Below the pieces are notes generated by a model. The model had not been told where the DNA came from and made no database searches. It worked only from the letters and a program-made list of their open reading frames with translations. A DNA stretch of 63,483 bases from Magnetococcales bacterium (lineage in GTDB: Bacteria > Pseudomonadota > Magnetococcia > Magnetococcales > UBA8363): assembly GCA_002753515.1 (NCBI GenBank), contig PEAK01000020.1, positions 1 to 63,483 of the forward strand. The letters are read 5' to 3'. A program made the position numbers and the translations under genes. Within the stretch, counting starts at the first letter, position 1, and each line of letters starts with the position of its first letter. Positions 27,459-57,999 of the stretch are shown here, in pieces.

Positions 27459-27501
27459 TGGATGAATGCGGCGTCACGCTTCTCGTACCAAGGGTTCCAC
27501 G

Positions 27502-27936
27502 ATGGCAACGGAAAACTCTTCAAATAACAAGCAAGCTCCGGCATTCCCCTTATCGACGATCCTGTTGGTGGATGATTCGGAAGAAAACCGTATGGTTATC
27601 GAAGCCTTTTTGCTGGGATCGGGTTGGCGGGTTGAGGTCGCAGAAAACGGCATCGAGGCCGTGGAAAAATTTAAAAATGGTCGCTTTGCCATGGTGTTGA
27701 TGGATCTGCAAATGCCTGTCATGGATGGCATCGAAGCCACACAAAAGATTCGCGCCTGGGAAACAGAACATCGTCACAATCAAAAAACACCAATCATCGC
27801 GTTGACGGCCCATGCAGCGGGACCCGAGTGGGATCAATGCCGGGAGGCGGGCTGCAATCATGTACTCACCAAACCCATTCGCAAACAAAATCTGCTGCAA
27901 ACCATTGATTCATGGAAGAGCGGTGGGCAGGTCTGA
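27502..27936 (+). CDS. Single-domain response regulator (CheY-like)
   Basis: 144 residues. One receiver domain: acidic pair VDDSEEN, phospho-acceptor Asp in VLMDLQMPVMDGIEAT, T in IIALTAH and K in VLTKPIRKQ. AAGGG lies 7 nt upstream of the chosen ATG; an upstream start would add an unlikely leader. There is no output domain, so it acts by protein contact or as a phosphorelay intermediate. MPVMDGIEAT is typical of receivers from hybrid kinases. The alcohol dehydrogenase gene follows 57 bp later. Confidence 0.9.
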   Translation: MATENSSNNKQAPAFPLSTILLVDDSEENRMVIEAFLLGSGWRVEVAENGIEAVEKFKNGRFAMVLMDLQMPVMDGIEATQKIRAWETEHRHNQKTPIIALTAHAAGPEWDQCREAGCNHVLTKPIRKQNLLQTIDSWKSGGQV

Positions 27937-27992: not shown

Positions 27993-29156
27993 GTGGGATT
28001 TTCCCGGATCAAAACACTATTTCCGGTTCCGCGTTTGCTCGCCAATCCCGATCTGTTCGCGGGACGACACGCGCTGATGGCCCTGAAGGGCATCGGCTCC
28101 TCCAGGACGCTGCTCTTGACAGGGGGATCGCTGCAACCCGAAAAACGCGCTGAAATTAAAAAAATGTTGCAGGCCGAATCGGTTATAGACGTTGTGCGCT
28201 CGCAGACGTTCGATCCCGACTGGCACCAGGTTGAAACCATCCTGCAATCCCTGGCGGGGAAAGTACCCGACCTGATCATTGCCGTTGGCGGCGGTGCCGT
28301 ACTGGACTTGGCCAAGCTCGTTTTGCTGAAACTGACCTGGCCCGAGGCGACACCAGAACGTATCACCCGACCTTTCGCCGCCCCACCCTTGAAAAACCAT
28401 ATTCGCCTGTGCGCCATTCCCACCACAGCCGGTTCCGGTGCCGAAGTTTCGTCATCCGCCCTGGTGTTGGACCAAACCTCCCAAAGCAAAAGCGCCATCG
28501 TCACCCACGATTTTATTTACGATGTGGTTTTGCTGGACCCGCGTTTTTTATCCGGCATACCCCGTTCGGTCATGTTGGCGGGGGTCATCGATGCCATGAC
28601 CCATGCGGTTGAGGGCACCATTTCCAATGTGGACAATCCTTTGGCCGATGCCCTGGCGGAAACATCCCTGGAACGGTTGGGTCGCTTGGCGCTCCACTGG
28701 TTACAGGATGAATCCAATCTGGAAATCATTCTGCAACTGCAATTTGCCGCACACCTGGCCGGAATGGTACAAAACCAGTGTGGCGTTGGCATCTGCCATT
28801 CTTTGGCCCATCAACTGGCACGATTCGCCATCGGCCATGGGGAAGCCAATGGGGTATTCCTGGCCCGGGTATTGGCTTTCAACAGTGCGGTGCCCCAAGT
28901 GGCCGAACGGTTGCATCGATTGCAAACACAGATCGGCTTTTCCATTGCAGAACGGGTTGGCGAACTGCAATCCGCCGCCGGCATGGCCACACAATTTCAG
29001 GATCTTCGCTCACGGATGGCATCCCGAGGCACGGCTGTGGCACCCGCTGTCCTGGGAAGGGATGCCTTGGCAGATATTTGCACCCGCTTCAATCCCCGCC
29101 CAGTGGATGCCGGGCAACTGACCGCCTTCTTCCAGGAAGGGGCACCCGGGGTTTAG
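27993..29156 (+). CDS. Iron-containing alcohol dehydrogenase
   Basis: 387 residues from GTG behind GGAGG. The group III (Fe) ADH fold is clear: AVGGGAVLDLAK (NAD(P)-binding, near residue 98), PTTAGSGAEVSSSALV (143-158) and metal ligands D200, H204, H269 and H282 with the usual spacing (VIDAMTHAVE, CHSLAHQL, GHGEANG). It reduces an aldehyde or oxidises an alcohol with NAD(P). It lies 53 bp upstream of the LuxE-LuxC fusion, so the likely task is turning the aldehyde made there into an alcohol, or the reverse. Confidence 0.93.
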   Translation: MGFSRIKTLFPVPRLLANPDLFAGRHALMALKGIGSSRTLLLTGGSLQPEKRAEIKKMLQAESVIDVVRSQTFDPDWHQVETILQSLAGKVPDLIIAVGGGAVLDLAKLVLLKLTWPEATPERITRPFAAPPLKNHIRLCAIPTTAGSGAEVSSSALVLDQTSQSKSAIVTHDFIYDVVLLDPRFLSGIPRSVMLAGVIDAMTHAVEGTISNVDNPLADALAETSLERLGRLALHWLQDESNLEIILQLQFAAHLAGMVQNQCGVGICHSLAHQLARFAIGHGEANGVFLARVLAFNSAVPQVAERLHRLQTQIGFSIAERVGELQSAAGMATQFQDLRSRMASRGTAVAPAVLGRDALADICTRFNPRPVDAGQLTAFFQEGAPGV

Positions 29157-29209
29157 GCAGCATTCCAACACTTTGAAGGTCACCCTGGATCCGCGAACCA
29201 AGCCGCATT

Positions 29210-31672
29210 ATGAACGAAACCAATCTTCCCTTGCAAACGCTGCTCTCCAAGCCCCCACGGGAATGGCTGGAGGAAGAACGCCGCCCCCTGTTCCTGGCGG
29301 CCATGACCGAAGAAATGCGGCACCATTTTCAACATTGCCCCCCCTTTCAACGCTATTGCCAACACCGTGGCGTCACCTTTGCAGAATCCCTGACCGATCT
29401 CGCGCCCCTCCCCTGGCTGCCCGTTCACGCCTTTAAATGGTTGGGTGGACGGCTGCTATCGGTGCCGGCAGAAGAGGTGCGCGTCAATCTGCAGTCATCG
29501 GGAACGTCGGGCATCCCCAGCCAAGTGATGATTGATCGCTTGACCGCCAAAAGACAAATCAAAGCCATGAGTCTCTCCATCGGAGAAGCCATTGGCAACC
29601 GCAGACGCCCCTTCCTGTTCATGGATGTTGACCCCAAAACGCATGTGGCCCACCTCAAAGCCCGTGGTGCCGCCATATTGGGCTATTTAAATTTTGCCTC
29701 GGAAGCGGTCTTTTGCCTGGAACCCGATGGGGCGGACGGGTTTCGTTTGCGGCACGATGTATTGCAGACCACCTTGGAAAAATGGGCGCATAACGAACGT
29801 GCGCCCGTTGTTTTCGGCTTTACCTACCTGCTTTATCAGGCCGTCCTGTTACCCCTGATGCGTGCAGGGCAATCCTTGCGCTTGCCCGAAACCAGTCAGG
29901 TTCTGCACATTGGCGGCTGGAAAAAATTGCGTGATCTGGCCGTGGGACCGGAACAATTCAAAGATTTGATTCATCGCGTATTCCATATCGAACCGGCGGC
30001 TGTGGTCGATGTGTATGGTTTTACCGAACAAATGGGAGTCAACTATCCCGATTGTATCCAGGGGGTCAAACATCTCCCCGCTGTCGCGGAAATCATGGTA
30101 CGCGATCCCCATACCCTGGAGCCCCTGGCAGATGGTTCCGAGGGCGTCCTGCAATTTTTGACTCCGATACCCCATTCCTATCCGGGTAATTCGGTATTGA
30201 CGGATGATTTGGGGCGCATCCTGGGACGTGGTCGCTGTGGCTGTGGTCGCGAGGGGGTCCAGTTCCAGGTCACAGGACGGCTGGCGACGGCGGAAGTGCG
30301 AGGGTGTGGGGATGTCCTGGCCAACCGGGTCGCCACGATTACCCCATTGGAACAAAAACGCAGCGGCGATACCGTGGAGTTATTATTGGTCCAAGGAAAC
30401 CATGGCGGGTTCACCAACTCCCTGGACCAGGTCTGCGATGCCATGGAAAAACGCCGTGACTGGTTGAGCCGGGTACCGGTCGAATCGATGATCATGCTCC
30501 TTGATTTGCTGGCCAGGGAGTGGCGCAATTCGGCATTGTTCGGCGTTTTGGACAAACAAGGATTGGCTTTTTTGTGCGATTGGTGCAGTGCCGATTCATT
30601 GCGACGCCTGGCGCAGACCGGCTTGGGTGGACATGTGGGCTTTCTGGATGAATTTCATCCCGTGGGATCCAGTACACGACGCAAAGCCATGGCACACCCC
30701 AAAGGATTGGTGTTGCATTGGGTGGCTGGAAATGTCCCCTTGATCGGCTTGTTTGTGTTGGTACAAGGGATGGTCACCAAAAACCTGAATCTGGTGCGGG
30801 CACCCTCGGCAGAACGACATATCATGGCGCAACTCTTGGCCCCCTTGAACCATTTGCAGGCGACACTGCCGGGCGGCTATTGTTTGCGGGGTAAAGATTG
30901 GTTGGAAACCTTGGCAATCGTCCATTTCCCCAAGGATCATGCCTTGGGTCCCGAACTATCGGCCAGGGCGGATGTCCGCGTCGCCTGGGGCGGGCGCGAA
31001 GCCGTGGAAACGCTGGCGGCCTGGCCACGAAAATATAACGTGCGCGATATTTTTTTTGGACCCAAACTATCGTTCATGGTCATCGGCAAGGAGTACCTGA
31101 CCGAAGGACGTGACTTGAAAAAATTAGTGCGTCGGGTGGCAACGGATTGTTCGGTCTTTGATCAATACGCCTGCTCCTCCCCCCACACCATTTTTGTGGA
31201 AATGGGCGGAGAAGTCACGCCACAACAATTTGCCGAACGTCTCGGCACGGAGATGGCCCATACCTTGACGCGGATTCCCAAGCAAGCCCCCGATGCCGGA
31301 ACGGTGATGAACATTGGTTTGCATCGCATTTATCATGACATGCTGCACGATGTGTGGCACTCAAAAGACAGCAGTTGGACGGTGTTGTATGATAACGAGG
31401 AGGGTTTGATGACACCGTGTTATTCCCGCGTCGTCACCGTCAAAGGGACACGGGATATCATGGACACCAGCCGATGGGCCAGCGAAGATATTCAAACAAT
31501 CGGTCTGGCATTGCGTGGGGAACGACGCTTGGAATATGCCCGCAACGTTGCATTGAAAGGGGTATGCCGATTGCCGGACATTGGCAAAATGACGCTGTTT
31601 GAACCCATATGGGATGGGCTGCGGGTGATGGAACACATGGTACGTTGGGTCACCTTGGGGGGACCGGGCTGA
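29210..31672 (+). CDS. Acyl-protein synthetase/acyl-CoA reductase fusion (LuxE-LuxC)
   Basis: 820 residues. Residues 1 to about 380 resemble LuxE (acyl-protein synthetase, ANL-like): QSSGTSGIPSQV (95-106) as phosphate loop, VLHIGGWKK (231-239), YGFTEQMG (269-276) and LTDDLGRI (330-337). Residues about 400-810 resemble LuxC (acyl-CoA/acyl-protein reductase): VAGNVPLIGLFVLVQG (505-520) and the catalytic Cys C655 in DQYACSSPHT. In luminous bacteria LuxE activates a fatty acid and hands it to LuxC, which reduces it to aldehyde with NADPH; here both steps are in one chain. No luciferase genes are present. Flanked by alcohol dehydrogenase and acyl ligase, so the product is probably an aldehyde or alcohol for a metabolite or glycan decoration. 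Acyl substrate unknown. Confidence 0.88.
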   Translation: MNETNLPLQTLLSKPPREWLEEERRPLFLAAMTEEMRHHFQHCPPFQRYCQHRGVTFAESLTDLAPLPWLPVHAFKWLGGRLLSVPAEEVRVNLQSSGTSGIPSQVMIDRLTAKRQIKAMSLSIGEAIGNRRRPFLFMDVDPKTHVAHLKARGAAILGYLNFASEAVFCLEPDGADGFRLRHDVLQTTLEKWAHNERAPVVFGFTYLLYQAVLLPLMRAGQSLRLPETSQVLHIGGWKKLRDLAVGPEQFKDLIHRVFHIEPAAVVDVYGFTEQMGVNYPDCIQGVKHLPAVAEIMVRDPHTLEPLADGSEGVLQFLTPIPHSYPGNSVLTDDLGRILGRGRCGCGREGVQFQVTGRLATAEVRGCGDVLANRVATITPLEQKRSGDTVELLLVQGNHGGFTNSLDQVCDAMEKRRDWLSRVPVESMIMLLDLLAREWRNSALFGVLDKQGLAFLCDWCSADSLRRLAQTGLGGHVGFLDEFHPVGSSTRRKAMAHPKGLVLHWVAGNVPLIGLFVLVQGMVTKNLNLVRAPSAERHIMAQLLAPLNHLQATLPGGYCLRGKDWLETLAIVHFPKDHALGPELSARADVRVAWGGREAVETLAAWPRKYNVRDIFFGPKLSFMVIGKEYLTEGRDLKKLVRRVATDCSVFDQYACSSPHTIFVEMGGEVTPQQFAERLGTEMAHTLTRIPKQAPDAGTVMNIGLHRIYHDMLHDVWHSKDSSWTVLYDNEEGLMTPCYSRVVTVKGTRDIMDTSRWASEDIQTIGLALRGERRLEYARNVALKGVCRLPDIGKMTLFEPIWDGLRVMEHMVRWVTLGGPG

Positions 31673-31692
31673 CAAACCTTGAGGCCACACCT

Positions 31693-33177
31693 ATGACAAC
31701 CAACACTGGGATGCCCTTCCCCACCACGGGAGAACATTTTCTCGCAATTCTCAAGCGCCACGCCCATGAGCATCCGCATCGACCGGCGTTGGTCGCAGAC
31801 GAACAAACCCTGGATTATGGGACACTGTGGTCTTGGACAGAGGGCATCGCCCAGGAATTGGCCGCACAAGGATTGCAACGGGGGCAGTGTGTTTTCCTGG
31901 CCATGGAGCCTTCCCTGTCGGGGCTGTTGTTTCATTTGGGACTATTGCGCCTGGGGGTGGTGACAGCGTTGCTCGACCCGGGACTATCCATCACGCAATG
32001 GTCCAATCGTGTGCAAGATCTGGCACCGACGACCATCATCGCCCCCTCCCCCATCCTGGCTGAAATTCATAAAAACACCCCTTGGCAAGGTCGCTCCATC
32101 GATCTTTCATCCAAGGTACTGGAAAACCTGACCCTATCCAGCCAGGCATTGCCGGAATGCCCGAACACGAACGATCCCGTCCTGATTCTGGGCACCACCG
32201 GAACCACCGGCCCGGTTAAATATGTCCTGTTAACGCTAGGCAACATCAGCGCTGCCACCTCCCATATCAACGCAACCATGGGAATAAGGGATACCGACGT
32301 CGAAATTCTCACTCTGCCGCTGCATCATTCGTTCGGATTGGGGCGTTTGCGCTGTGGGCTGGCAGCCGGGGCCTGTAGCCACTTGGTTGCGGGGCGATTC
32401 CGACCCGAACGCCTGCTCAAAGCGGTCAAGGGGAACCATGCCACCCTTTTTGCCCAGGTACCGGCGGGGATACGTCTGCTATTGGCGTTGGGAAACAGGG
32501 TACGCCCCTGGCTGGAGGGAATCCGCTTGGTTGAAATAGGCAGCGCACCTTTGGAAATGGATGAAAAAAAACGGTTGATGGATCTCCTGCCACAAGCCAA
32601 GCTATGGCACCATTACGGCTTGACCGAAGCCTCCCGTTCCCTGTTCCTGGAGTATCATGACGCTTTGCAAGCGGGATGTTTGCACGCTTTGGGACGACCC
32701 GCCCCCGGGGTGGAACTCCAATTGTCGGAAGCAAAGGATGGCGAACCCCGGGAACTCCTGATACGCGGCCCCCATGTCAGCCCGGGATATTGCATCCCCG
32801 GGGGCAGGTCGTATGGCGTGCAACCCACCAACGCCTGGTTGGCTACCGGGGATTTGGTTCGTTTGGATGAACGCGGCACTTATTACCATGTGGGACGATC
32901 CGATGATGTCATCAACCTGGGGGGATTCAAAGTCCACCCCCAGGAAATTGAATCCGTCCTGGCTGCTTGTCCTGGAATTGCCGATGTTGCCGTAGCGTTC
33001 CGTGGCGGACAATTGGTCGCCTTTATCCAAAATGACAGTACGTTCCAGGAACAACGCGCATTGGAATGGCTGCAAAAACACCTGGAACCCTACAAACATC
33101 CCCAATGCTATCGCTTGCTGGATCGCGTGCCACGCACGGAATCAGGCAAATTGCTGCGTCGGTTGCTGCCCGATTGA
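31693..33177 (+). CDS. AMP-forming acyl-CoA/acyl-ACP ligase
   Basis: 494 residues from MTTNTGMPF, 20 bp after the fusion gene; earlier in-frame starts would overlap it. ANL-superfamily motifs: LGTTGTTGPVKY (167-177, A3 loop), LPLHHSFGLGR (208-218), HHYGLTEASR (306-315), TGDLVRLDERG (385-395), GRSDDVINLGGFKVHPQEIE (401-420) and the C-terminal catalytic Lys in SGKLLRR (484-490). Activates a carboxylic acid as acyl-AMP and transfers it to CoA or a carrier. With the LuxE-LuxC fusion it doubles the acyl-activating capacity of the operon, hinting at two acids or a carrier-protein route. Confidence 0.9.
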   Translation: MTTNTGMPFPTTGEHFLAILKRHAHEHPHRPALVADEQTLDYGTLWSWTEGIAQELAAQGLQRGQCVFLAMEPSLSGLLFHLGLLRLGVVTALLDPGLSITQWSNRVQDLAPTTIIAPSPILAEIHKNTPWQGRSIDLSSKVLENLTLSSQALPECPNTNDPVLILGTTGTTGPVKYVLLTLGNISAATSHINATMGIRDTDVEILTLPLHHSFGLGRLRCGLAAGACSHLVAGRFRPERLLKAVKGNHATLFAQVPAGIRLLLALGNRVRPWLEGIRLVEIGSAPLEMDEKKRLMDLLPQAKLWHHYGLTEASRSLFLEYHDALQAGCLHALGRPAPGVELQLSEAKDGEPRELLIRGPHVSPGYCIPGGRSYGVQPTNAWLATGDLVRLDERGTYYHVGRSDDVINLGGFKVHPQEIESVLAACPGIADVAVAFRGGQLVAFIQNDSTFQEQRALEWLQKHLEPYKHPQCYRLLDRVPRTESGKLLRRLLPD

Positions 33178-33203: not shown

Positions 33204-33451
33204 AATATTTTAGCCCACTTGGAATTGATCGTGAACTATGCGTATAAAAATGATCAACCAGGAGGAGAGCGATGAGAAGAAAGAGACGGCTATGCCCCTA
33301 TGAAGATAAGGCGATCATTTTGAAACGGCACACGGTAATACGAAAAGCTCTCTCGGCTCAGTGTGAAGAAGCCGGCTGTCACCTGACCAAGCATACCCAT
33401 TGGTGGCACCTTTTTTCGAGCATGCCCCTGTCCTGGTGTACCATTGCATGA
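33204..33451 (+). pseudogene. Transposase relic, copy 1 (IS3-like OrfA start)
   Basis: Direct repeat of the element start at 35832, including upstream AATATTTTAG(C/T)CCA(C/T)TTGGAATTGATCG and a strong AGGAGGAGAG site. A 59-residue frame (33272-33451, MRRKRRLCPYEDKAIILKRH...) matches the helix-turn-helix start of IS3/IS66-type transposases, with EEAGC as turn, then runs out of homology near 33425. Its TGA overlaps the ATG of the GT41 gene by 4 bp (33448-33451). It is non-functional as a transposase, but could be translated. Confidence 0.65.
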
Positions 33452-35730
33452 TTCCTGTTCTTTATGAAAAGGCTTTTGCCCTGTTTAACAAGGGAAACGT
33501 ATCGGAATCCCTGCGTGTCATCCATGCCATTCTAGAGGTAATGGAACCCGATGTTTCGCTTCTGGACCTTCAAGCGCTGTGTCATATGCGTTTAGGCCAT
33601 TATGAACTGGCTATTTCTTATTGGCAGCAAGCCTTAAAGATTAAACCTGACTATGCTGAACTTCACAATAATGTGGGCATACTTCTGAAAAATATGAAAC
33701 GCTACCAGGAAGCGGAGACGGCTTATCGGAAAGCCATAAGCCTCAAACCTGAATTCAGCGATGCCAGCTATAATCTTGGAAACCTATTGAAAGAATTGCG
33801 GCGTTACCCGGAAGCGGAAATGGCCTATCGTCGGGTACTTGAAATCCACAATGACGATGCTGGTATTTATATCAATCTTGGAATACTTCTCCAGGAAATG
33901 AAACGAGACGACGAAGCGGAAACAGCTTACCGTCAGGCTTTGCGTATCAAGCCAGATTCAGCCAAAGCCAATAATAATCTTGGAGTGCTTTTGAAAAGCT
34001 TGAAGCGTTACCAGGAAGCGGCGGCAACCTACCGCTCAGCTCTGAAATTTTTGCCTGAAAACGTGGAGGTATTAAACAATTACGGCAATCTTCTACGAGA
34101 AATGAAGTGTTATGAAGAAGCGAAAGCGGTATACCAGCAGGCTTTGCGCAGGTCACCGGAATACGCTGAGGCACTCAATGGATTTGGCAATCTTTTACAT
34201 GAATTGAAGCGGGAAAGAGATGCGGAGGATTACTATCGCCACGCCATTGCCGTAAGGCCGGCTTTTGTCGAAGCCTGGGACAATCTTGGCAATTTATTGT
34301 ACCGATTGAAACGCTACGAAGAAGCGGAAGCTGCTTATCGAGAGGCATTGCGCCTCAACCCGCAAGATGGGAGCGCCTTGGAAGGGGTGTACCACATCAA
34401 CAGGATTCTTTGTCAATGGGATGCAATGAAAGAGTACGAACGGGCCATCATTGATGCCATGGACAAAGGGATCGCCATTTCACCATTTACATTATTATCC
34501 CTACCCCACGATGAAGGTTTGCATCATCGTAAAGCGAGTTTTCATTTTTTTCAAGATTCTGTGGGAAATTTCCTTAAATATCCCCCTTTGGTTCACCCCA
34601 ATCAGCATCACAATCGAGATCGGTTGCGTATTGGTTACTTGTCTGCAGATTTCCATGATCATGCCACTGCTCATCTATTGGTTGGGATATTGGAGGCGCA
34701 TGAACGGAAACGGTATGAAATATATGGTTATTCCTACGGCCCCCCCCGTTCGGATTCCTATCGGCAGCGTATTGTCGCAGGATGCGATTTTTTTCAAGAT
34801 TTATTTTTCTGCCCTGATGATGAAAGCGCACGTAAAATAGCGGAAGATAATATTGATATTTTAATCGACCTGAAAGGCTATACCCATTTGGCGCGTCCTG
34901 GCATTATGGTGATGCGTCCCGCACCCATCCTCATCAATTGGCTGGGATATCCCGGAACGATGGGGCATTCCCGCGTGGCCGATTATCTTATTGGTGATGC
35001 AACGGTTTCCCCACCCCATCATGCCGGACATTTTTCCGAAACCCTTGCCCTTTTACCACACTGCTACCAGCCGAATGATCGCAACCGGGCCTTGGTTACC
35101 GGTATGACACGTCATGATGTGGGATTGCCTGAAAAAGCCTTTGTATTTTGCTGTTTCAATCAAAGCTACAAATTGGGGCCAGAGAGTTTTGACCATTGGT
35201 GCCGATTGCTTCAGGCGGTTCCAGACGCTATTCTTTGGTTGTTGGCAGCCCCCCCCGCTGCCAATGGAAACCTGCAACGCGAGGCAACCTTGCGTGGTAT
35301 TGACAGCCGTCGGATCATTTTTGCCCCAACATTACCATTGGAGCGGCATCTTGGCCGATTGGCACTGGCTGATCTGGCACTGGACACCTTTCCAGTCACC
35401 TCGCACACTTCGGGAAGCGATGCCTTGTGGGCAGGTGTCCCGATGATTACCAAGATGGGGAACAGCTTTGCAAGCCGTGTGGCTGCAAGTTTATTGCATG
35501 CGGTTGGCTTGCCGGAACTGGTTACGGAATCATGGGACAGTTATTTTGAATTGGCATTGAACCTGGCTCAAGATACCAACCGTTATCAGTCGATTCGCAG
35601 GCAACTTGCTGCCAACCGTCTGACCCATCCCTTGTTTGACACCGAACGTTTCACCCGTGATCTTGAGAAGCTATACGAACGCATATGGCAGGATCATGGG
35701 CACGGCAAAAAAGAAATGATTATCTTATAG
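33448..35730 (+). CDS. TPR-GT41 (OGT/SPINDLY-type) glycosyltransferase
   Basis: 760 residues. Residues 1 to about 330 contain nine or so TPR units (YxEAExAYRxAL.IKPD.A). The C-terminal part is the GT41 catalytic domain: LRIGYLSADFHDHATAHLL, DILIDLKGYTHLARPGI, INWLGYPGTMGHSRVADYLI, FCCFNQSYKLGPESFDHW and LDTFPVTSHTSGSDALWAGVPM, all hallmark segments, including the H of FHDHA. It would transfer GlcNAc or another sugar to Ser/Thr (or Asn) of proteins. Base use is visibly more AT-rich than neighbouring genes. It is bracketed by two dead transposase copies, and its ATG overlaps the stop of the first; no separate Shine-Dalgarno site is seen, so expression may rely on read-through of that relic. Acquired DNA is likely. 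Confidence 0.92.
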   Translation: MIPVLYEKAFALFNKGNVSESLRVIHAILEVMEPDVSLLDLQALCHMRLGHYELAISYWQQALKIKPDYAELHNNVGILLKNMKRYQEAETAYRKAISLKPEFSDASYNLGNLLKELRRYPEAEMAYRRVLEIHNDDAGIYINLGILLQEMKRDDEAETAYRQALRIKPDSAKANNNLGVLLKSLKRYQEAAATYRSALKFLPENVEVLNNYGNLLREMKCYEEAKAVYQQALRRSPEYAEALNGFGNLLHELKRERDAEDYYRHAIAVRPAFVEAWDNLGNLLYRLKRYEEAEAAYREALRLNPQDGSALEGVYHINRILCQWDAMKEYERAIIDAMDKGIAISPFTLLSLPHDEGLHHRKASFHFFQDSVGNFLKYPPLVHPNQHHNRDRLRIGYLSADFHDHATAHLLVGILEAHERKRYEIYGYSYGPPRSDSYRQRIVAGCDFFQDLFFCPDDESARKIAEDNIDILIDLKGYTHLARPGIMVMRPAPILINWLGYPGTMGHSRVADYLIGDATVSPPHHAGHFSETLALLPHCYQPNDRNRALVTGMTRHDVGLPEKAFVFCCFNQSYKLGPESFDHWCRLLQAVPDAILWLLAAPPAANGNLQREATLRGIDSRRIIFAPTLPLERHLGRLALADLALDTFPVTSHTSGSDALWAGVPMITKMGNSFASRVAASLLHAVGLPELVTESWDSYFELALNLAQDTNRYQSIRRQLAANRLTHPLFDTERFTRDLEKLYERIWQDHGHGKKEMIIL

Positions 35731-35831
35731 CAAGTGTGTTTTCAGGTATTGGATCAAATTCTGGTGTAACGGTATGAGGGTGTATATTTATAATTTTTTT
35801 CTGGGAGCACACGGTCGTGAGTCGTCATGTA

Positions 35832-36230
35832 AATATTTTAGTCCATTTGGAATTGATCGTGAAAAATTCGTATAAAGCATGATCGACCAGGAGGACAGCG
35901 ATGAGAAAAATGAGACGGCAGTACACTTAATGAGGAGAAGGCGATCTTTCTGAAGCGGCACTTGGCAGAACGAAAATCTCCCTCAGATATGTGTGACGAA
36001 ACCGGCTGTCACCCGACCATGATTTACCGTTGGCAACGAGCCCTTTTCGAACATGCCGCAGTGGCGTTGCAAGGTGGGCGTGATCATGGCCCGCAGTGTG
36101 ATCAACAACGGAATAGCATTTTTCCATGAGCATCCCCTGGATGGCTATCGCCGCCTGACTTGCATGAATGGTGCTGACATTGTGGCCGTGAGTCCTTCGA
36201 CTGTCAGACGGGTTCTCAACGGGGCGGGAA
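35832..36230 (+). pseudogene. Transposase relic, copy 2 (IS3-like, deleted)
   Basis: Starts like copy 1, with ATG at 35901 after GGAGGACAGCG, but hits TAA after nine codons. Frames beyond it retain HLAERKSPSDMCDETGCHPT (OrfA helix-turn-helix) and, after an internal deletion, HPLDGYRRLTCMNGADIVAV and SPSTVRRVLNGAG, which belong to the OrfB part. So a deleted, frameshifted transposase. Ends near a terminator-like hairpin (36241-36269). Confidence 0.7.
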
Positions 36231-36240
36231 AAGCAAAACC

Positions 36241-36269
36241 CTGGGGGCAATCCCCCAGCCCCCTTTTTT
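36241..36269 (+). terminator. Terminator-like hairpin
   Basis: CTGGGGG-CAAT-CCCCCAG forms a perfect 7-bp stem with tetraloop, followed by CCCCC and TTTTTT (36264-36269). Such a CCCTGGGGGC/CCCCCAG block with T-run precedes the 69-nt repeat copy B and may terminate transcripts from the GT41 side. Confidence 0.6.
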
Positions 36270-36324
36270 CTTTTAATATTTTTTCAATCAACCAAGAAGC
36301 GCGAATGTGGCAAAGTAGAATTAA
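36256..36324 (+). repeat. 69-nt dispersed repeat, copy B
   Basis: Same length and order as copy A (25780-25848). Its last 21 nt, AATGTGGCAAAGTAGAATTAA, match the terminal repeats of the element at 56670-56832 with one change. The end supplies the stop codon (TTA, 36321-36323 on the plus strand) of the minus-strand TPR gene, so the element end has trimmed or reshaped that gene's 3' end. Confidence 0.7.
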
Positions 36325-37787
36325 GTCCTTTCCCGCAACTCCTGGGCCACACGCGCCACCAGCGACCGCCAATCTCTGGGTGTTGACTGACGAAACAAGC
36401 GCATGCCCGGGTACCAGGGACTGTCGTTACGATGGGCCAACCACCGCCATTCCGCACCGGTATGGAGCAGCGTCCACGTCGGCACCCCCAAAGCCCCGGC
36501 CAGATGCACCACGGCGGTATCGGTGGATATCAACAGATCCAAATTGACCAATACCGCCGCAGTTTCCGAAAAATCTTCCAATTCTCCAGCCAGATCCACA
36601 ATTTTTTTCTCCCGGTCCACAAAGCGTAATTCCTCAGCCGGAGTGTCCTTTTGCAAGCTGAAAAATTGCATTCCCGGAATATCGGTCAACGGATACAAAT
36701 CCCGAAGGGTGCAAGCACGATTGCGGTTGGCAGTAGCCGTCGGGTTACCCGACCAGTTGATCCCAACCTTGAAACCAGGAAACACCTGCAAACGGTCGCG
36801 CCAATAGGTGATACGTTCGGCATCGCCACTCAGGTAAGGAATCTGACTGGGAATATCCGCCAGGGATTGGGTAAGGAAACCCGGCAAACTCATGATGGGT
36901 AGATGGTAGTCGTAGTCAAACGGGGGGGGCTCGCCATCGTCGGGCAGGCGAACGTGCAATTTGTCGGACAACCGAGACAATGAAAACAAACGATACAATT
37001 CTTTTTTGCACTCAAAATGGACCTGCGCCCCTTGCGAGCGTAAGACGTGCAGATAACGACTCATCATGATGGCATCGCCGAACCCCTGCTCGGTATAGAT
37101 ATAGATGCTTTTCCCTTCCAGGTTCTCACCCTGCCAGCGTGGTTTTGGACAAATTCTCGGGGCCAGGTTTTCCAATTGCCACCGCCATTCGTACTCCAAC
37201 CATCCTTCACGAAAACGCTCCAGCATCAACAGGGAGAAGGCACGGGCCATGTGGACGTTGGCTGATGTGGGACCAAACTCCAGGGCACGGTCCAAATATC
37301 GCAGCGCCCCATCATGATTACCCCGTTCCTGATCCAAAATTCCCAGGTTAAAATGTGCCGTGACATGCTGCGGATTGCAGATCGTTGCCATTTCAAAGCA
37401 ACGCCTGGCCTCCTGAACGTCATCCTCGGCAAAGTAGATGCTACCCAGATTGAGATACCCCTCATAAAAATCGGGTTTCAACCTGAGAGACTCCTGATAG
37501 GCTTTTTTAGCTTGTGCAATCTTCTCCTGACCTTGAAGCAGACTGCCGAGATGAAAGTGATAATGGGGGTTGCTGGGAAAGCTGGCGATGGCCTGCTCCA
37601 TCAAGGTGATCGCCAAAGGGTAGCGTCCGGCGGTATTGGCGACCATGGCCAGGATATGCAAGGCTTTATGATTATCGGGCTCCATGGCGTACACACGATT
37701 GGCCAATGATCCCGCCTTGGCCAGATCACCCTTATTGTAGGCCAGTGTTGCCTGCTGCAACACGCTTTGAATTTCATCCTCGGTCAT
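36321..37787 (-). CDS. TPR protein with GT9-like glycosyltransferase domain
   Basis: 488 residues. About six TPR units fill residues 1-210 (YNKGDLAKAG start, PDFYEGYLNLGSIYFAEDD). The GT9-like domain follows: GKSIYIYTEQGFGDAIMMSR at its start and LDLLISTDTAVVHLAGALGV then WRWLAHRNDSPWYPGMRLFRQ at its end, the same C-terminal signature as the 4.0-5.8 kb and 37.8-39.3 kb proteins. The start overlaps the stop of the upstream paralogue by 4 bp (37784-37787). Its stop codon lies in the 69-nt repeat. Likely a protein or glycan glycosyltransferase of the flagellar locus; donor unknown. Confidence 0.82.
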   Translation of the reverse strand: MTEDEIQSVLQQATLAYNKGDLAKAGSLANRVYAMEPDNHKALHILAMVANTAGRYPLAITLMEQAIASFPSNPHYHFHLGSLLQGQEKIAQAKKAYQESLRLKPDFYEGYLNLGSIYFAEDDVQEARRCFEMATICNPQHVTAHFNLGILDQERGNHDGALRYLDRALEFGPTSANVHMARAFSLLMLERFREGWLEYEWRWQLENLAPRICPKPRWQGENLEGKSIYIYTEQGFGDAIMMSRYLHVLRSQGAQVHFECKKELYRLFSLSRLSDKLHVRLPDDGEPPPFDYDYHLPIMSLPGFLTQSLADIPSQIPYLSGDAERITYWRDRLQVFPGFKVGINWSGNPTATANRNRACTLRDLYPLTDIPGMQFFSLQKDTPAEELRFVDREKKIVDLAGELEDFSETAAVLVNLDLLISTDTAVVHLAGALGVPTWTLLHTGAEWRWLAHRNDSPWYPGMRLFRQSTPRDWRSLVARVAQELRERT

Positions 37788-39292
37788 AGCTGTTCTTCAA
37801 GGTCAGCGACCAGGCGGGCAATGGGTTCCTCCCATTGATTGGCCCGAGTCTGTCGATACAATCTGGAGCTGGGGTACCAGGGTGACCGCTCCCGATCCAG
37901 GGTCCAACGCCAATCTGGAGCAACCGGGAGCAAGATCCAGACCGGTTTTCCCATTCCACCCGCCAGATGCGCCACAGCGGTATCGATGGTGATCACCAAG
38001 TCCAGGTTGTCCACAACAGCCGCTGTTTCGGAAAAATCATGTAAATTCGGCCCCACATCCAACACGTTTACCGGGCAATCCTGATGAAAGATTTGCTCAC
38101 GAGCCGCTTCTTTTTGCAGGCTGACCAGTGTTATCCGTTCCGCCAATCGATTGAGCGATGCAAACTCCCCCAGGTTGGCCGAGCGGCGGCGCAGGGGATC
38201 ATTCTGATGCAAGGCTTTGCCTTCCCAAACCAGGCCAACCTTGAAACGATCCTGCGGCAATCGGTGCCGCCAATACCGACTCCTTTCCGGATCCGCGAGC
38301 AAATACCGCTGTGATGCACCCATGGAATCGGCTGAGCGGACAAACATTGTTCCCAGGCTCATCATGGGGATGAAATAATCAAATTTTTGCTGATAATCCA
38401 GAAGCGCTTGTACCCGCCCCAGGTTCGGTTGTCCCTGGAATAGGGCTTCCAAAGGTTTGGCGACACACACGGTCACCTCAGCCCCCAACGTCAGCAATCG
38501 GGGGATGAAGCGGACGAACTGCAGGGCATCGCCATAACCTTGTTCGGCCAGAACCAACAATGCCCTGTCTGTTAGGGGTTCCCCATTCCAACGCGGCAGA
38601 GCTGGCGGCGGGGGCAGGTGCAAACCATGTCCCTCGGGCAAATGGAAACGCCATTCCAGTTCCGCAAATCCCCGTTCATAATCGCCCTGGAGCAACAGGG
38701 TATGGGCCAAATTGACATGGCTCACCGCCGATTGGCCATCAATCTTCAGGGCTTGCTCAAAACACCCCCTGGCTCTCTGCATGGCACCGACCCCCTTCTG
38801 GCAGAGACCCAGGTTGATCCAGGCGGACAACAATTCCGGGTTGCAATCGATCGCCATGGAAAAACAATCGATTGCCAACGCCATATTACCCTGATCCATG
38901 GCGAGATCCCCCATCATGAAATGCAGGTCGGCATGCCGGGGATTGCGTGCAATGGCATCTTTCAGTCTTTCCATGGCAGCGGCGAGTTTTCCGGTTTTTC
39001 GCAGCATGATGGCCAGGGAGTGGTACATGTCCACCTGACCCGCATCCAGGGCAATGGCGCGACTGACATGGTGAATGGCTTGCGGCAACGCCCCGGTTTG
39101 TTCAAAAGCCAGTCCCAACAGATAATGCAACTGCGGATGGCCTGGATATTGCTTGATAAATGGTTCGATAACAGCCACGGCTTGACCACCCTGGCCTGTC
39201 TGAAGCCATTGAAATACTTTATGTATTACTGTTTGCAAAGAATCGGACGGGGGGGAAGCCATCAGGGCCATTCTTAAGGTTGGACGTATCAT
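37784..39292 (-). CDS. TPR protein with GT9-like glycosyltransferase domain
   Basis: 502 residues (starts at the eighth or eleventh residue, MALMASPP, are also possible; no strong Shine-Dalgarno site). TPR units occupy about 20-200 (HPQLHYLLGLAFEQTG, HADLHFMMGDLAMDQG). The GT9-like part has DRALLVLAEQGYGDALQFVR and ITIDTAVAHLAGGMGKPVWIL with WRWTLDRERSPWYPSSRLYRQ. First gene of a two-gene minus-strand unit, divergent from Maf by 87 bp, so the two directions probably share a regulatory region and a flagellin-glycosylation role. Confidence 0.82.
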   Translation of the reverse strand: MIRPTLRMALMASPPSDSLQTVIHKVFQWLQTGQGGQAVAVIEPFIKQYPGHPQLHYLLGLAFEQTGALPQAIHHVSRAIALDAGQVDMYHSLAIMLRKTGKLAAAMERLKDAIARNPRHADLHFMMGDLAMDQGNMALAIDCFSMAIDCNPELLSAWINLGLCQKGVGAMQRARGCFEQALKIDGQSAVSHVNLAHTLLLQGDYERGFAELEWRFHLPEGHGLHLPPPPALPRWNGEPLTDRALLVLAEQGYGDALQFVRFIPRLLTLGAEVTVCVAKPLEALFQGQPNLGRVQALLDYQQKFDYFIPMMSLGTMFVRSADSMGASQRYLLADPERSRYWRHRLPQDRFKVGLVWEGKALHQNDPLRRRSANLGEFASLNRLAERITLVSLQKEAAREQIFHQDCPVNVLDVGPNLHDFSETAAVVDNLDLVITIDTAVAHLAGGMGKPVWILLPVAPDWRWTLDRERSPWYPSSRLYRQTRANQWEEPIARLVADLEEQL

Positions 39293-39379
39293 ACGGTAAC
39301 TCGTAACACGTCAAGGATAAGCTTTCCCAGAGGCAAAGATCAAGCAATCATTCCCAAGGAATTTCCGACCCAAACCGCC

Positions 39380-41941
39380 ATGAGCCATTCCTCCACATCC
39401 TTTGGTGCCCTGCTGACCAATCGTTTCGGTGAGCGCTATTTTCCCGCCATCAATGGGGAAACGTTTTCCCTGACTGGATCCGGCAGCTATTTCCAGCGCT
39501 ATTTTGGCAGCATGGTTGAGCGCAAGGATGCCATGAACCTGATCCCGGGGACCGATGGTGGACTGCTGGTCCACTGGCTACTCAACAAACAAACTGGGGA
39601 GGGCAGTCGGTTCCTGTTCATTGAAATACCGGAACTCCTGCAACGATTGCACGACGAGCGACTGCTACCGGATGAATTACCCGAGCATATCGTCATTACA
39701 ACACCGGACAACTGGCTCAAAACTGCCGAAGAATTATCTCTTAAGGATTATTTTTATATTGGCAACGTCTTCCCCTGGCGTTCCCTGGCGGTTGTTGACA
39801 GTTTTCATGATGGCTATGTCAAACTTTGGAACCATTTTGATGAGCAGCTCGGTCAATACCTGATCGCCGTGGGCCAGGAGACCGGGTCACGCATTTTCAT
39901 GTTGAAATGTCTGGAAAATCTCCCTGAAAATCGCACCCCCATTCTCGCCCTGGACATGAAGTTTCAAGGACGCACGGCTATCCTGCTCTCTGGGGGGCCG
40001 TCCCTGAATGAAAGTTTTGACTGGGTTAAAAAACATCGCGATAACCTGGCCGTGTTGGCGGTCACCCGTATCGCCAAGCAACTGGCTGAAGTCGATCTGG
40101 TACCCGATCTGTTTTTTGCGATCGATCCCCATGACATTATTTTTCACCAAAGCAAGCATACCCTGGAATTCCACGAAAAAAGCCTGCTCATCAACATGTA
40201 TCATCTCAATCCCAGATTGATGGGTCTTTGGCGCGGGCGCAGCCTGTACATGGGCACCTTGTTTCCCTGGGAAGCACCGCAAAATCCGGAATCACATAGC
40301 TACCCGGGCATCACCGTCAGCCATCAAGCCTTGGGAGCCGCCATTGACATGGGGTTTGCCAGGATCATCCTGGCGGGCTTTGACTTGTGTTTCAGCCGGG
40401 AAGGGTTTACCCACGCCCGGGGCAGTGTGGAAATGGCCAGCGGTCCCTACGTTCACCGCTCCGAACTGTGGGTTGAGACCAATGGCGGTTGGCAGGCGGA
40501 AACCCGCAGTGATTTTTTCAATGCCTTGCCGGCACTCCACTCGTTGGCCGACTATGCCCAAACCAAGGGGTGTGAAATCATCAACCCCGCAGCTTCCGCC
40601 GCCAAAATTGCCGGGGTCGCTTGGCGTCCATGGGACACATTGCATGTAACCCCGATCACCCCCAACACTTGGGATCACTTGCAGCACATCGTGCCGTCAG
40701 AAAATGCCCAAAATCGTCGGGAACATTATCACATGTTACTGACCGAGTTGCAGCGTGTCGAAGAGGAACTCACTGCCGTTCGTGACCTCACCGCCGAAGC
40801 GGTGGAATGTAACGATCTGCTCTTCGGTCGCAAAGGCGGCCCTGCCGATTTTCAATACAAAATCAGAATGGATGCCATAGAAACCATCTTGGATGAAGAG
40901 CATCGGGAATTTTCGCGCCTGGTCAAAAAATGGAGCGTTGCCGATTTTCTCCGCTTATCCCGACCCAACAAAAGCAAAGAGTGGAGCGATGAGGAGATAG
41001 AAACCATAGGTCGGCGTTATTACGAAGTCTACCGGGACAGTGCCATCAACCTATTGGAGACCCTCGCCAACAACCGGACCAGAATTCAAGCCCGTCTTGC
41101 CGAAGAAGAGGCGGACGCCGACATGGCAACCATTCTGGACCAGTACGAAAAGGATGGCCAGGAGGGCCGTGTTCCCATCTTGCTCAGCAAACGCCAACAA
41201 TCGCTCGATGATTTTCCCGAAGCAATCCGCCAACGGCTGCATGCCTTCCAGGAGGCGCACCGCGCCCTCATGGAACAAACCGAAACCGACTACAAGGACC
41301 ATTGTAAAAACCAATTGGCCTCCCCCAATGCCATTTGTTCCAAGGTCATGGCCATGTTTCAAAGTGGTGAAACGGAGCGTCTGCGACATTTCATGGATGG
41401 CGTCCAACAGAGCGGAATGGAACATAAGGAACATTTCCTCCGTCTCATCCGGGGTCTTTTGGCGGAACATGACGAAGATTTTCAGCAGGCTTTGACCTGG
41501 TACCGGCAAATTTCCTTCGCCCCGCTCATTCTGACCGGATTGCAGCGACAACTGGCCGTCTACCTGCGCCAGGGCAGTTTGACCAGCGCCTGTGCCGTTG
41601 CCAAACGCCTGGGTGATAATTCCCTGTTGCATCTCCCTTTCTACGCTGATTTATTGCGTTTGACCGGCGACAAGGGGGGGGCGATTGCCACCCTCACAGA
41701 GTACACCAAACTTATCGTTGATGATTTTGTCGCCATGATCAAACTGGGGCAACTGTTGCTGGATGACGGCGATTGGCAGGGCGCGCAACGTTGTTGTCAG
41801 GAAATCCTCGCCAAAGATGGTGGCCATAAAGCCGCTCTCATGTTGCTGGAAAAAGCCAATACGCAGGCCATCGGGTTTGATGGCGATCCATCACCGGCCA
41901 CTGCGCCTTCCAACACGCCAGAAAGGGACTTGGCACCATGA
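39380..41941 (+). CDS. Maf-type flagellin glycosylation protein (DUF115 / MptE-like)
   Basis: 853 residues. The central region (about 190-370) is the DUF115/6-hydroxymethylpterin-diphosphokinase-like fold: TAILLSGGPSLNESFDW, PDLFFAIDPHD, YPGITVSHQALGAAIDMGFARIIL and AGFDLCF. The N-terminal ~180 residues match the Maf-specific region; the last ~250 are helical, TPR-like. Maf proteins transfer pseudaminic or legionaminic acid onto flagellin. The 3' end overlaps the aminotransferase gene by 4 bp (ATGA), linking it to sugar synthesis. No clear Shine-Dalgarno site precedes the ATG. Confidence 0.85.
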   Translation: MSHSSTSFGALLTNRFGERYFPAINGETFSLTGSGSYFQRYFGSMVERKDAMNLIPGTDGGLLVHWLLNKQTGEGSRFLFIEIPELLQRLHDERLLPDELPEHIVITTPDNWLKTAEELSLKDYFYIGNVFPWRSLAVVDSFHDGYVKLWNHFDEQLGQYLIAVGQETGSRIFMLKCLENLPENRTPILALDMKFQGRTAILLSGGPSLNESFDWVKKHRDNLAVLAVTRIAKQLAEVDLVPDLFFAIDPHDIIFHQSKHTLEFHEKSLLINMYHLNPRLMGLWRGRSLYMGTLFPWEAPQNPESHSYPGITVSHQALGAAIDMGFARIILAGFDLCFSREGFTHARGSVEMASGPYVHRSELWVETNGGWQAETRSDFFNALPALHSLADYAQTKGCEIINPAASAAKIAGVAWRPWDTLHVTPITPNTWDHLQHIVPSENAQNRREHYHMLLTELQRVEEELTAVRDLTAEAVECNDLLFGRKGGPADFQYKIRMDAIETILDEEHREFSRLVKKWSVADFLRLSRPNKSKEWSDEEIETIGRRYYEVYRDSAINLLETLANNRTRIQARLAEEEADADMATILDQYEKDGQEGRVPILLSKRQQSLDDFPEAIRQRLHAFQEAHRALMEQTETDYKDHCKNQLASPNAICSKVMAMFQSGETERLRHFMDGVQQSGMEHKEHFLRLIRGLLAEHDEDFQQALTWYRQISFAPLILTGLQRQLAVYLRQGSLTSACAVAKRLGDNSLLHLPFYADLLRLTGDKGGAIATLTEYTKLIVDDFVAMIKLGQLLLDDGDWQGAQRCCQEILAKDGGHKAALMLLEKANTQAIGFDGDPSPATAPSNTPERDLAP

Positions 41942-43098
41942 TCCCTTTGTCCATGCCCGATCTTTCGGGTAATGAAGCGGCCTACCTGCAAGAGTGCATT
42001 CACAGCACCTATGTGTCATCCGTAGGCCCGTTCGTCAGCCGTTTTGAACAGATGGTCGCGCATGCCGCCGGGAGTCCCCATGCCGTGGCCACCGCTTCGG
42101 GTACTGCTGGCCTGCATGTGGCTCTCGTCGCCTCGGGCGTTGCCCCGGGAGATCTGGTCATTGTGCCCAGCCTGACATTTATCGCCAGTGCCAATGCTGT
42201 GAGCTATTGCGGTGCCCAACCGTGGCTGGTGGATATCGATCCACACACCTGGAATCTGGATCCCGATGTGTTGCAAACCATCCTGACCGAAGAATGTGTT
42301 TTGCAACATGGCCACTTGTTTCGCAAGGCGTCCAACCAACGGGTGGCTGCCATCATGCCGGTCCATATTTTGGGAAATCCGGCGGAGATGGATCGCCTGA
42401 TCCCCCTGGCCCGGCAATTCAACCTGCCTGTGATCGCAGATGGTGCTGCCGCCCTGGGAGCGCACTATCGTGGACATCGGATTGGCGATCTGGGAGCAGA
42501 CTTGACAGTGTTCTCTTTCAACGGCAATAAAACGGTAACCTGTGGCGGGGGCGGGGCCGTCGTTGGATCCCGGGAACAGCAAATGCATCACATTCGCCAT
42601 CTGTGTACCACCGCCCGCCTGGGTGAAGCCTACGACCACGATCAGGTCGGCTTCAATTATCGCCTCACCAATATTCAGGCCGCGGTCGGATGTGCGCAAA
42701 TGGAACGATTGGCGCACCTGGTTGCCAAAAAACAGGGGGTCCGGGACTATTATCGCCAAGCCTTTGCGCATTTCACCCCGGTTGCCCTGTTCCCCGATGC
42801 GGTCCATGGTCAATCGGCAGCCTGGTTTTCCGGGATCGTCCTACAACATCCCTCTCCCAGCCATGCCGCTGATTTAAAGACATTCTTGCGCCAACGCGAC
42901 ATTGATGCCCGACCATTCTGGAAACCGTTGCATCTTCAGGCCCCGTATCGCGATGTGCCAAGGACCCCGCAACCTGTCAGTGAATCCCTTTGGTACCGCA
43001 TCATGGTGTTGCCCTGTTCCACCACCATAACCGATCAGGAACTGGCGCATGTGGTCCAATCGGTGTACCAGGGTTGCGAAAAGGTCGGCATTTCGTGA
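41938..43098 (+). CDS. legC: LegC-type PLP-dependent sugar aminotransferase
   Basis: 386 residues, DegT/DnrJ/EryC1 family. Hallmarks: IPLSMPDLSGNEAAYLQECI start, SVGPFVSRFEQ, ATASGTAGLHVAL, VPSLTFIASANAV and SFNGNKTVTCGGGGA, whose Lys binds PLP. The latter motif and start resemble LegC/PtmB-group enzymes that aminate a 4-keto sugar nucleotide in legionaminic or bacillosamine synthesis. It overlaps Maf (4 bp) and the acetyltransferase (GTGA, 43095-43098). The exact sugar cannot be read from sequence. Confidence 0.85.
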   Translation: MIPLSMPDLSGNEAAYLQECIHSTYVSSVGPFVSRFEQMVAHAAGSPHAVATASGTAGLHVALVASGVAPGDLVIVPSLTFIASANAVSYCGAQPWLVDIDPHTWNLDPDVLQTILTEECVLQHGHLFRKASNQRVAAIMPVHILGNPAEMDRLIPLARQFNLPVIADGAAALGAHYRGHRIGDLGADLTVFSFNGNKTVTCGGGGAVVGSREQQMHHIRHLCTTARLGEAYDHDQVGFNYRLTNIQAAVGCAQMERLAHLVAKKQGVRDYYRQAFAHFTPVALFPDAVHGQSAAWFSGIVLQHPSPSHAADLKTFLRQRDIDARPFWKPLHLQAPYRDVPRTPQPVSESLWYRIMVLPCSTTITDQELAHVVQSVYQGCEKVGIS

Positions 43099-43775
43099 GC
43101 GATCACACCCTCCCGCCTGCGCAGCATTTGGTCATGATTGGAGCAGGTGGACATGCCCGTGTCCTGCTGGATGCCCTTGCCGAAAACAAACAACAGCTCA
43201 GCGCCCTTTGCCTCCCGCCCCAAGCCCCCATTCCCCCCTGGGGGCGGGCATTACCCTGCATGACCAGCGATGCAGAACTCGTGGAACGATTTCCCCCCGG
43301 GATAACCCGCTTGATTCTCGGCATCGGATCGGTCGCAACCAATCATAAACGAATGCACCTGTTTCAGCATTACCAATCGCTTGGCTATCGTTTCGCTTCC
43401 ATCCTGCACCCCCATCATTATCAGGCCCGGGAAGTGGTTTTGGGAGAGGGATGCCAGATCATGGCCGGGGCGATCGTGCAAACCGCCTGCATCCTGCACG
43501 ATAACGTCATCATCAATACCAGGGCCACCGTCGATCATGAATGCGTCATCGACAGCCACGTCCACATCGCCCCCGGAGCCGTCTTATCGGGTGGTATCCA
43601 TATCGGTTGTGCCGCTCACATCGGTACCGGTGCCGTCATCATTCAAGGGTTGCACATCGGTGCCGCTGCCCTGGTTGCTGCGGGGGCGGTCGTGGTGGAC
43701 AATGTGCCGGATGGTACTGCCGTGGCCGGGGTTCCAGCCAAACCCATGCGGCATAAAAGTCTCCCCCACCTTTAG
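43095..43775 (+). CDS. NeuD/PglD-type sugar acyltransferase
   Basis: 226 residues from GTG overlapping the aminotransferase stop. N-terminal Rossmann-like part (VMIGAGGHARVLLDAL) followed by a left-handed beta-helix of hexapeptide repeats (VIINTRATVDHECVIDSHVH, APGAVLSGGIHIGCAAHIG) ending in AAGAVVVDNVPDGTAVAGVP. The family acetylates amino-sugar nucleotides (PglD, LegH) or sialic-acid O-positions (NeuD). After a LegC aminotransferase it most likely N-acetylates the 4-amino group. The 272-bp gap to the next gene holds no gene. Confidence 0.85.
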   Translation: MSDHTLPPAQHLVMIGAGGHARVLLDALAENKQQLSALCLPPQAPIPPWGRALPCMTSDAELVERFPPGITRLILGIGSVATNHKRMHLFQHYQSLGYRFASILHPHHYQAREVVLGEGCQIMAGAIVQTACILHDNVIINTRATVDHECVIDSHVHIAPGAVLSGGIHIGCAAHIGTGAVIIQGLHIGAAALVAAGAVVVDNVPDGTAVAGVPAKPMRHKSLPHL

Positions 43776-44047
43776 AATTTTCTTCCACCCCACCGGGTAC
43801 TGGAAATAATTGCCGCATCCACCCCTGCATTTCTTCCCCTCCCCCATACCTTTCGATCATGTTTTCTCACGGAACTAACATTTTTTCCAATGTTTTTCAG
43901 TAAGATATAAAAGACAAACAACACGGCACCCTTCTTGCGTTGCCCCCTGTAACCCTCGGAATGATCCAGGGTTGCCCATGAAGATGATTCACAATCCATT
44001 GGAACTGGCCAGCGGCAAGTTACGTTCTAGCCCAGGAGGATACTGTT

Positions 44048-45106
44048 ATGACGGCCGTAGAATATTGGCGAAAGGTTGTCATTGGTTCGCAAACATCCAT
44101 ACTGGATGTCATGAAGGTGATTGATCGGGGTGCCCTCAGGGTCGCCCTGGTAACCGACGAGGTCAACCGCTTGATCGGGGTCATCACCGATGGCGACATT
44201 CGACGGGGATTGCTCAATGGGATCAACATGAAAGATCCCGTACAACGCATCATGGGACGGATTCCCACCGTTGCCCGCGAAACCGATGCCGAAGAACGTG
44301 TGTTGGCCCTCATGACCAGTAAAAGTATCGATCACATGCCCATCGTCGACGACGATGGACGCCTGATCGGCTTGAAAACCTTGCGGGAACTGGCCAGTCG
44401 CGAACAACGCCCCAATTGGGTCGTCCTCATGGCGGGAGGACTGGGTTCGCGCATGGGACCATTAACCAAATCGTGTCCCAAGCCCATGCTCAAAGTCGGC
44501 ACCAAACCCATCCTGGAACTCATCCTGGAAAGCTTTGCCGCGTATGGCTTCAAACATTTTTACATCTCGGTCAATTACCGCAAGGAAATCATCCAGGATT
44601 ATTTCCAGGATGGTGCCAACTGGGGCGTAGAGATTCATTACCTGGAGGAAGAGGATCGCCGTGGCACTGCCGGGCCCCTGGCATTGTTACCGGAAGTCCC
44701 GGAAGAGCCGTTTTTTGTCATGAATGGGGATCTGTTGACGCAGATCAACTTTAAAAACATCCTCGAATTTCACGAGGAACACGGATCCCTGGCCACCTTG
44801 TGTGTCCGCAAGGTGGAACAAGCCATCCCATACGGGGTAGTGCATACCCACCAGCACAATCTGGTAAGCATCGAAGAAAAACCTGTGCAGGAGTATTTCA
44901 TCAACGCGGGCATCTATCTGCTGGATCCAAAAGTAATGGATTACATTCCGTCCAACACCTATTTTGACATGCCCGACTTATTCCACAAAGTCATCGAACA
45001 TGGCCATTCCACAGCGGCTTTCCCGTTCCTCGACTATTGGATGGATATTGGACGGATGGCCGACCTGAAACAGGCCAGCCGGGATTACCCGGAGGTTTTT
45101 TCCTGA
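44048..45106 (+). CDS. ptmE: CBS-domain sugar nucleotidyltransferase (PtmE-like)
   Basis: 352 residues; GGAGG 8 nt upstream. Residues 1-120 are two CBS domains (LVTDEVNRLIGVITDGDIRR, SIDHMPIVDDDGRLIGL). Residues 125-350 are the nucleotidyltransferase: LMAGGLGSRMGPLTKSCPKPM (127-147), MNGDLLTQINF (metal Asp) and LDYWMDIG. In Campylobacter the same order is PtmE, GlcN-1-phosphate guanylyltransferase, first step of GDP-linked legionaminic-acid synthesis. Together with LegC and the acetyltransferase it forms part of that route; LegB, LegG, LegI and LegF are not in the window. Confidence 0.85.
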   Translation: MTAVEYWRKVVIGSQTSILDVMKVIDRGALRVALVTDEVNRLIGVITDGDIRRGLLNGINMKDPVQRIMGRIPTVARETDAEERVLALMTSKSIDHMPIVDDDGRLIGLKTLRELASREQRPNWVVLMAGGLGSRMGPLTKSCPKPMLKVGTKPILELILESFAAYGFKHFYISVNYRKEIIQDYFQDGANWGVEIHYLEEEDRRGTAGPLALLPEVPEEPFFVMNGDLLTQINFKNILEFHEEHGSLATLCVRKVEQAIPYGVVHTHQHNLVSIEEKPVQEYFINAGIYLLDPKVMDYIPSNTYFDMPDLFHKVIEHGHSTAAFPFLDYWMDIGRMADLKQASRDYPEVFS

Positions 45107-56603: not shown

Positions 56604-56669
56604 CGCAATCCCACACCCGGGGAGACTGAACTTTGCTGGCGCACCCTTCGGGAAGACAGCACTCCAGAA

Positions 56670-56832: not shown

Positions 56833-56836
56833 CATC

Positions 56837-57817: not shown

Positions 57818-57890
57818 CCCATCCTCCCGTAGCCCGAAACCACCAGCAACCGACCCAAGCCCGGTCCTGATCCAACACACCCGGACGAAT

Positions 57891-57928: not shown

Positions 57929-57999
57929 TCCTCACATCATCTCGCGCAACGCCCCCCGGCCAAACCTGAAGCAACACCCCGGGGGGAACACCCTTTTCA

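Follow-up and report, generated by a model that had tools for sequence, protein, structure and literature searches.

LuxE and LuxC are best known as separate enzymes of the lux system and as unexplained genes of flagellin-glycosylation islands, and a locus in a Magnetococcales bacterium raises the question of what the two may do when they are joined in a single protein. In the window, a stretch of 63,483 nucleotides (assembly GCA_002753515.1, contig PEAK01000020.1), the stop-free frame at 29210..31672 encodes a LuxE-LuxC fusion protein of 820 aa; this gene, its domains and residues, and its three neighboring genes described below lie on the forward strand of the window. The first-pass annotation had placed both enzymes on one 820-residue chain, and both Pfam domains were indeed found there at full length. 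The LuxE domain (acyl-protein synthetase, ANL-type; residues 11-373, 29240..30328) matched PF04443 with an E value of 1.8e-91 and 307 bits against a cut-off of 24.9, spanning profile positions 21-389 of 391. The LuxC domain (acyl-thioester reductase; residues 422-813, 30473..31648) matched PF05893 with an E value of 4.2e-79 and 267 bits against a cut-off of 21, spanning positions 4-401 of 401, so that the profile search placed the C-terminal half within LuxC, as had been proposed. The two matches are separated by an inter-domain stretch (residues 374-421, 30329..30472), inside which approximately residues 374-388 constitute a variable linker. The fusion protein also matched both chains of PDB 7xc6 (E values 2e-19 and 1e-12), the solved LuxC-LuxE complex of Photobacterium phosphoreum. 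The gene is present as a single copy in the source genome. The family of each part is already known; what sets the protein apart is their joining in one chain.

Both active sites of the fusion look intact on alignment. The phosphate loop SSGTSG (residues 96-101, 29495..29512) aligned with the active-site motif of the 7xc6 LuxE, and Cys655 (31172..31174), the catalytic cysteine of LuxC, lies in the motif FDQYAC, aligned with the corresponding motif of the 7xc6 LuxC and was invariant in all 32 LuxC domains aligned; the earlier claim that these two elements are preserved is thus supported. A third residue had been overlooked, namely Cys366 (30305..30307), the putative acyl-transfer cysteine of LuxE. 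It is located in EVRGCGD at the end of the LuxE domain, aligned with the C-terminal cysteine of the 7xc6 LuxE and was invariant in 33 of 33 LuxE domains aligned. The phosphate loop and the C-terminal acyl-transfer cysteine that mark LuxE proteins are therefore both present. From family knowledge, we assume that the acyl group is carried by the counterpart of Cys366 in luminous LuxE and by the counterpart of Cys655 in LuxC.

A joined frame might also reflect faulty assembly or two genes in decay, since the genomes concerned are metagenome-assembled. Among seven further genomes of the genus, six matched the fusion: five with a whole, stop-free gene (70-97% identity), and one in which the match stopped at a contig end after LuxE. 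The fusion is accordingly stop-free in six genomes of the genus including that of the window, and dN/dS against the window was approximately 0.1 in the LuxE half as well as in the LuxC half. In the inter-domain stretch, dN was about 2.5-3.5-fold higher than in the domains. Such a pattern, with low dN/dS in the halves and faster change between them, is expected of two constrained domains plus a linker. Because independent assemblies from five relatives and from a distant gammaproteobacterial MAG (L007, described below) carry the same joined frame, we rejected a frameshift or an assembly artefact, and we regard an erroneous or decaying gene as extremely improbable. The frameshift between two separate genes that had been named as a possible refutation was not seen in any of the six genus genomes.

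The fusion gene lies between two further enzyme genes. Upstream, with a GTG start, an iron-containing alcohol dehydrogenase (Fe-ADH) is encoded at 27993..29156 (PF00465, E 7e-25, and PF25137). Its residues D200, H204, H269 and H282, which we take from the family motif to be the metal ligands, were invariant in five aligned ADHs ranging from the window to L007, and the GGG-x3-D motif was conserved as well, in agreement with the first description of an Fe-dependent enzyme with all four ligands. Downstream, an ANL acyl ligase (AMP-binding) occupies 31693..33177, with matches to PF00501 (E 3e-50) and PF13193, which confirms the earlier assignment; its longest frame opens at 31609, the likely start ATG at 31693 is internal to that frame, and the protein carries the YGLTE and C-terminal GK motifs. 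The intergenic gaps are 53 bp between ADH and fusion and 20 bp between fusion and ligase, and we infer that the three genes are co-transcribed. Scans for promoters and terminators gave signals no higher than in shuffled sequence. Directly upstream of the Fe-ADH, a single-domain response regulator (27466..27936, PF00072) had escaped the first reading, and its position was kept in those relatives whose contigs have upstream sequence.

Comparison within the genus supported part of the three-gene arrangement that had been described. Where contigs extend far enough, the order M23 peptidase, response regulator, Fe-ADH and fusion is conserved. Downstream sequence is available for the window and five relatives. 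Of these six genomes, four have the ANL ligase directly after the fusion; the two exceptions, G042 and G044, are among the relatives. The three genes adjoin in the window and in L007, but the ligase is the less constant member, and they may not form one fixed pathway. In G042 a Mur/FolC-type ligase directly follows the fusion, and in G044 the nearest recognized genes are nitrogenase-type. Across the relatives the downstream genes comprised an amylase, an RTX protein, a GDP-mannose dehydratase, the Mur/FolC-type ligase together with LptD and SurA, or nitrogenase-type genes. Two observations on these relatives may be recorded separately. On the G044 contig (L045, 3620-8955) the fusion is near a homocitrate synthase-like gene in addition to the nitrogenase-type genes, and in G043 the Fe-ADH is split into two overlapping frames (L042, 5717-6818), the frameshift being either real or assembly-made.

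The first-pass annotation had suggested a search for the same architecture and neighborhood in other genomes, and such loci were found in the five genus relatives, where the ligase is not always adjacent, and in L007. The fusion of L007 is 40% identical to that of the window and again stands beside an Fe-ADH and an acyl ligase; the genes of this locus are two ACP-like proteins, the ligase, the Fe-ADH, the fusion, a hexapeptide acyltransferase, an SDR, a KASIII and a PPTase. The Fe-ADHs of the two cassettes are 29% identical. No further LuxE-LuxC fusion was detected in about 1,400 genome searches (a total that includes repeats of some genomes), which covered the order Magnetococcales, its phylum, the order and class of L007, and the class and phylum of a Peptococcaceae genome carrying a LuxC relative. 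About twenty genomes of the phylum contained both domains on separate chains. Fusion-like long open frames were noticed in four other genomes (G411, G436, G446 and G855) and were rejected, as the loci when read contained separate LuxE and LuxC genes. Other fusions were encountered, including an 877-aa ANL-LuxE protein within a flagellin-glycosylation island (L056, 9338-11971, reverse strand) and proteins in which an AMP-binding domain follows LuxC at the C terminus (L069, 2131-4551; L124, 9790-12489; L125, 9252-11786). Like the protein of the window, these place neighboring enzymes of the set on one chain, but they have other partners or the reversed order, and none unites LuxE with LuxC. The titles and abstracts of the literature searched, in which subscription papers were largely out of scope, reported no LuxE-LuxC fusion. 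The fusion is a real, conserved and rare joining of two known enzyme families with a constant Fe-ADH partner.

On this basis, the single chain of the fusion probably acts as a carboxylic acid reductase that depends on ATP and NAD(P)H, and the neighboring Fe-ADH probably makes the alcohol. This reading is based on the fusion as such and its conservation, on active-site residues that are intact, and on the partnership with Fe-ADH and ligase in two classes, and the fusions of neighboring steps found elsewhere (L056, L069, L124 and L125) count in its favor as well. The chemical steps and the order of acyl transfer follow from family knowledge. The LuxE half would adenylate an acid to acyl-AMP and move the acyl group from there to its own Cys366; the thioester would then be handed on to Cys655 in the LuxC half, and the short variable linker that tethers the halves could speed this transfer, as in the channelling suggested by the first reading; acyl-Cys655 would be reduced with NAD(P)H to the aldehyde, which the Fe-ADH would probably convert to an alcohol. 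As for the separate ANL ligase, its probable task is to activate an acid for attachment to CoA or a carrier, either within this route or in one parallel to it. An AlphaFold model of the fusion (nine rows) reached a pLDDT of 64.8 and a pTM of 0.47, too poor to judge the domain arrangement. As is generally known, carboxylic acid reductases (CAR) likewise combine adenylating and thioester-reducing domains in a single chain; the reductase of CAR is an SDR-type domain, whereas that of the fusion is LuxC, and the relay here would run over two cysteines. In the Pfam search only PF04443 and PF05893 matched the fusion chain, and a phosphopantetheine carrier domain was not among the matches.

The role of the Fe-ADH bears on where this route ends. 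Fe-ADHs run in both directions, so an acyl aldehyde, for instance for condensation with an amine or a sugar, might be the end product, with the Fe-ADH separate or oxidative; the flagellin-island cassettes, in which an SDR and a ligase accompany LuxE and LuxC, and the occurrence of Fe-ADH only with the fusions point in this direction. However, the Fe-ADH is the immediate neighbor of the fusion in both classes, which favors a coupled step, and an aldehyde end point appears unlikely, at perhaps one chance in several. Still less probable, in our judgment, is a supply of long-chain alcohol or aldehyde for lipids such as wax esters or ether lipids. Fatty acids are the substrates of luminous LuxC and LuxE according to family knowledge, but the nearest LuxE relatives of the fusion lie in glycan islands and not in lipid clusters. 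No WS/DGAT match was obtained genome-wide, in a search whose control was equally silent.

The kinship with lux fatty acid reductase, which employs the same two enzymes, might further suggest that the fusion feeds a luciferase-like light reaction. The fusion has in common with the luminous LuxC-LuxE of 7xc6 both domains, the acyl-transfer cysteine, the catalytic cysteine and the expected conversion of acid to aldehyde; it differs in being one chain instead of separate chains and in its large distance in the LuxE tree. The curated luminescence equivalogs were not reached, with LuxE scoring 93 bits against 550 for NF052244 and LuxC 84 against 750 for NF052251. The luciferase family (PF00296, Bac_luciferase) had no match in the whole source genome, which is 97% complete, in a search whose controls were positive in 10 of 14 cases; the absence of luciferase that had been noted for the neighborhood therefore extends to the genome. 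Together with the position of the LuxE half apart from luminous LuxE, this leaves a light reaction with next to no probability, and as far as sequence tells luminescence can be excluded.

Phylogenies of the parts located the nearest relatives of the cassette. In that of LuxE, the halves from fusions of the two classes came together in one clade (98/95); its sister group was the LuxE of flagellin-glycosylation islands, and luminous LuxE branched elsewhere. In that of LuxC, a Peptococcaceae sequence joined the halves from the fusions (100/99), support for the latter as a group of their own being only 88/63, and the flagellin-island LuxC made up a different clade. The cassette ligases of both classes grouped together (99/99). 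The clades of fused LuxE and of cassette ligases suggest that the cassette was inherited as a unit, and the trees, which contain several long branches, are suggestive of different nearest kin for the LuxE and LuxC halves. The Peptococcaceae LuxC belongs to a cluster of its own (L008, 3348-17424) with an isopropylmalate-type dehydrogenase, aconitase parts, a homocitrate synthase-like enzyme, a ligase, an ACP, a KASIII-like protein, LuxE and radical SAM proteins, which looks like an unstudied pathway.

The affinity of the LuxE half to the islands, which together with the ACP, SDR, ligase, luxE and luxC genes found there was overlooked by the first reading, offers a possible context for the product. 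Published flagellin islands carry genes for ACP, 3-oxoacyl-ACP reductase and AMP-synthetase together with luxE and luxC, a set that the authors interpreted as a possible route to a liposugar (PMC7874193, PMC4875605). The island cassettes (Aeromonas group II, Enterobacteriaceae) have a LuxE sister to the fused half and likewise contain an ANL ligase and an oxidoreductase partner. They differ in that their LuxE and LuxC are separate adjacent genes and that ACP and SDR stand in place of the Fe-ADH; the LuxC and the ligase of the window fall in other clades, and pse genes are not adjacent. The pse genes, ACP and SDR, which are present in most of the loci L049-L060, are absent from the window operon, which sets it outside the island cassettes. 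On contigs other than that of the window, the source genome has two matches to NeuB and 16 to flagellin domains, and the flagellins of the related magnetococcus MO-1 are highly glycosylated (PMC7175107).

Our guess, by analogy, is that the reduced acyl product may end in a surface glycoconjugate or a glycosylated flagellar protein. The analogy concerns the LuxE half only, because the LuxC half groups outside the flagellin-island clade, and a glycan role is an analogy because glycosylation-type neighbors do not stand beside the operon in relatives. Such genes adjoin the operon in the window, where the region 33400-45106 encodes GT41-TPR and TPR-GT9 proteins, a Maf/PseD-like protein (MptE domain), a DegT aminotransferase, a hexapeptide acyltransferase and a CBS-nucleotidyltransferase, but not in relatives, and we rejected a function read from these neighbors for that reason. 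Elsewhere in the window, at 54642-60168 on the reverse strand, biotin carboxylase-like, MeaB-like GTPase and methylmalonyl-CoA mutase-like proteins were seen by eye in a row. The more specific proposal, a carrier-free acid reductase in which the acyl group would pass from Cys366 to Cys655 without a phosphopantetheine arm and the alcohol from the Fe-ADH would be used on a cell-surface or flagellar glycan, is put forward only tentatively.

A stable single-chain version of LuxE and LuxC, accompanied by an Fe-ADH, provides a compact protein for studying the passage of an acyl group between two cysteines. In addition, the fusion offers a test of which acids the glycan-island cassettes use, and it bears on the practicality of a carrier-free acid reductase for making aldehydes or alcohols.
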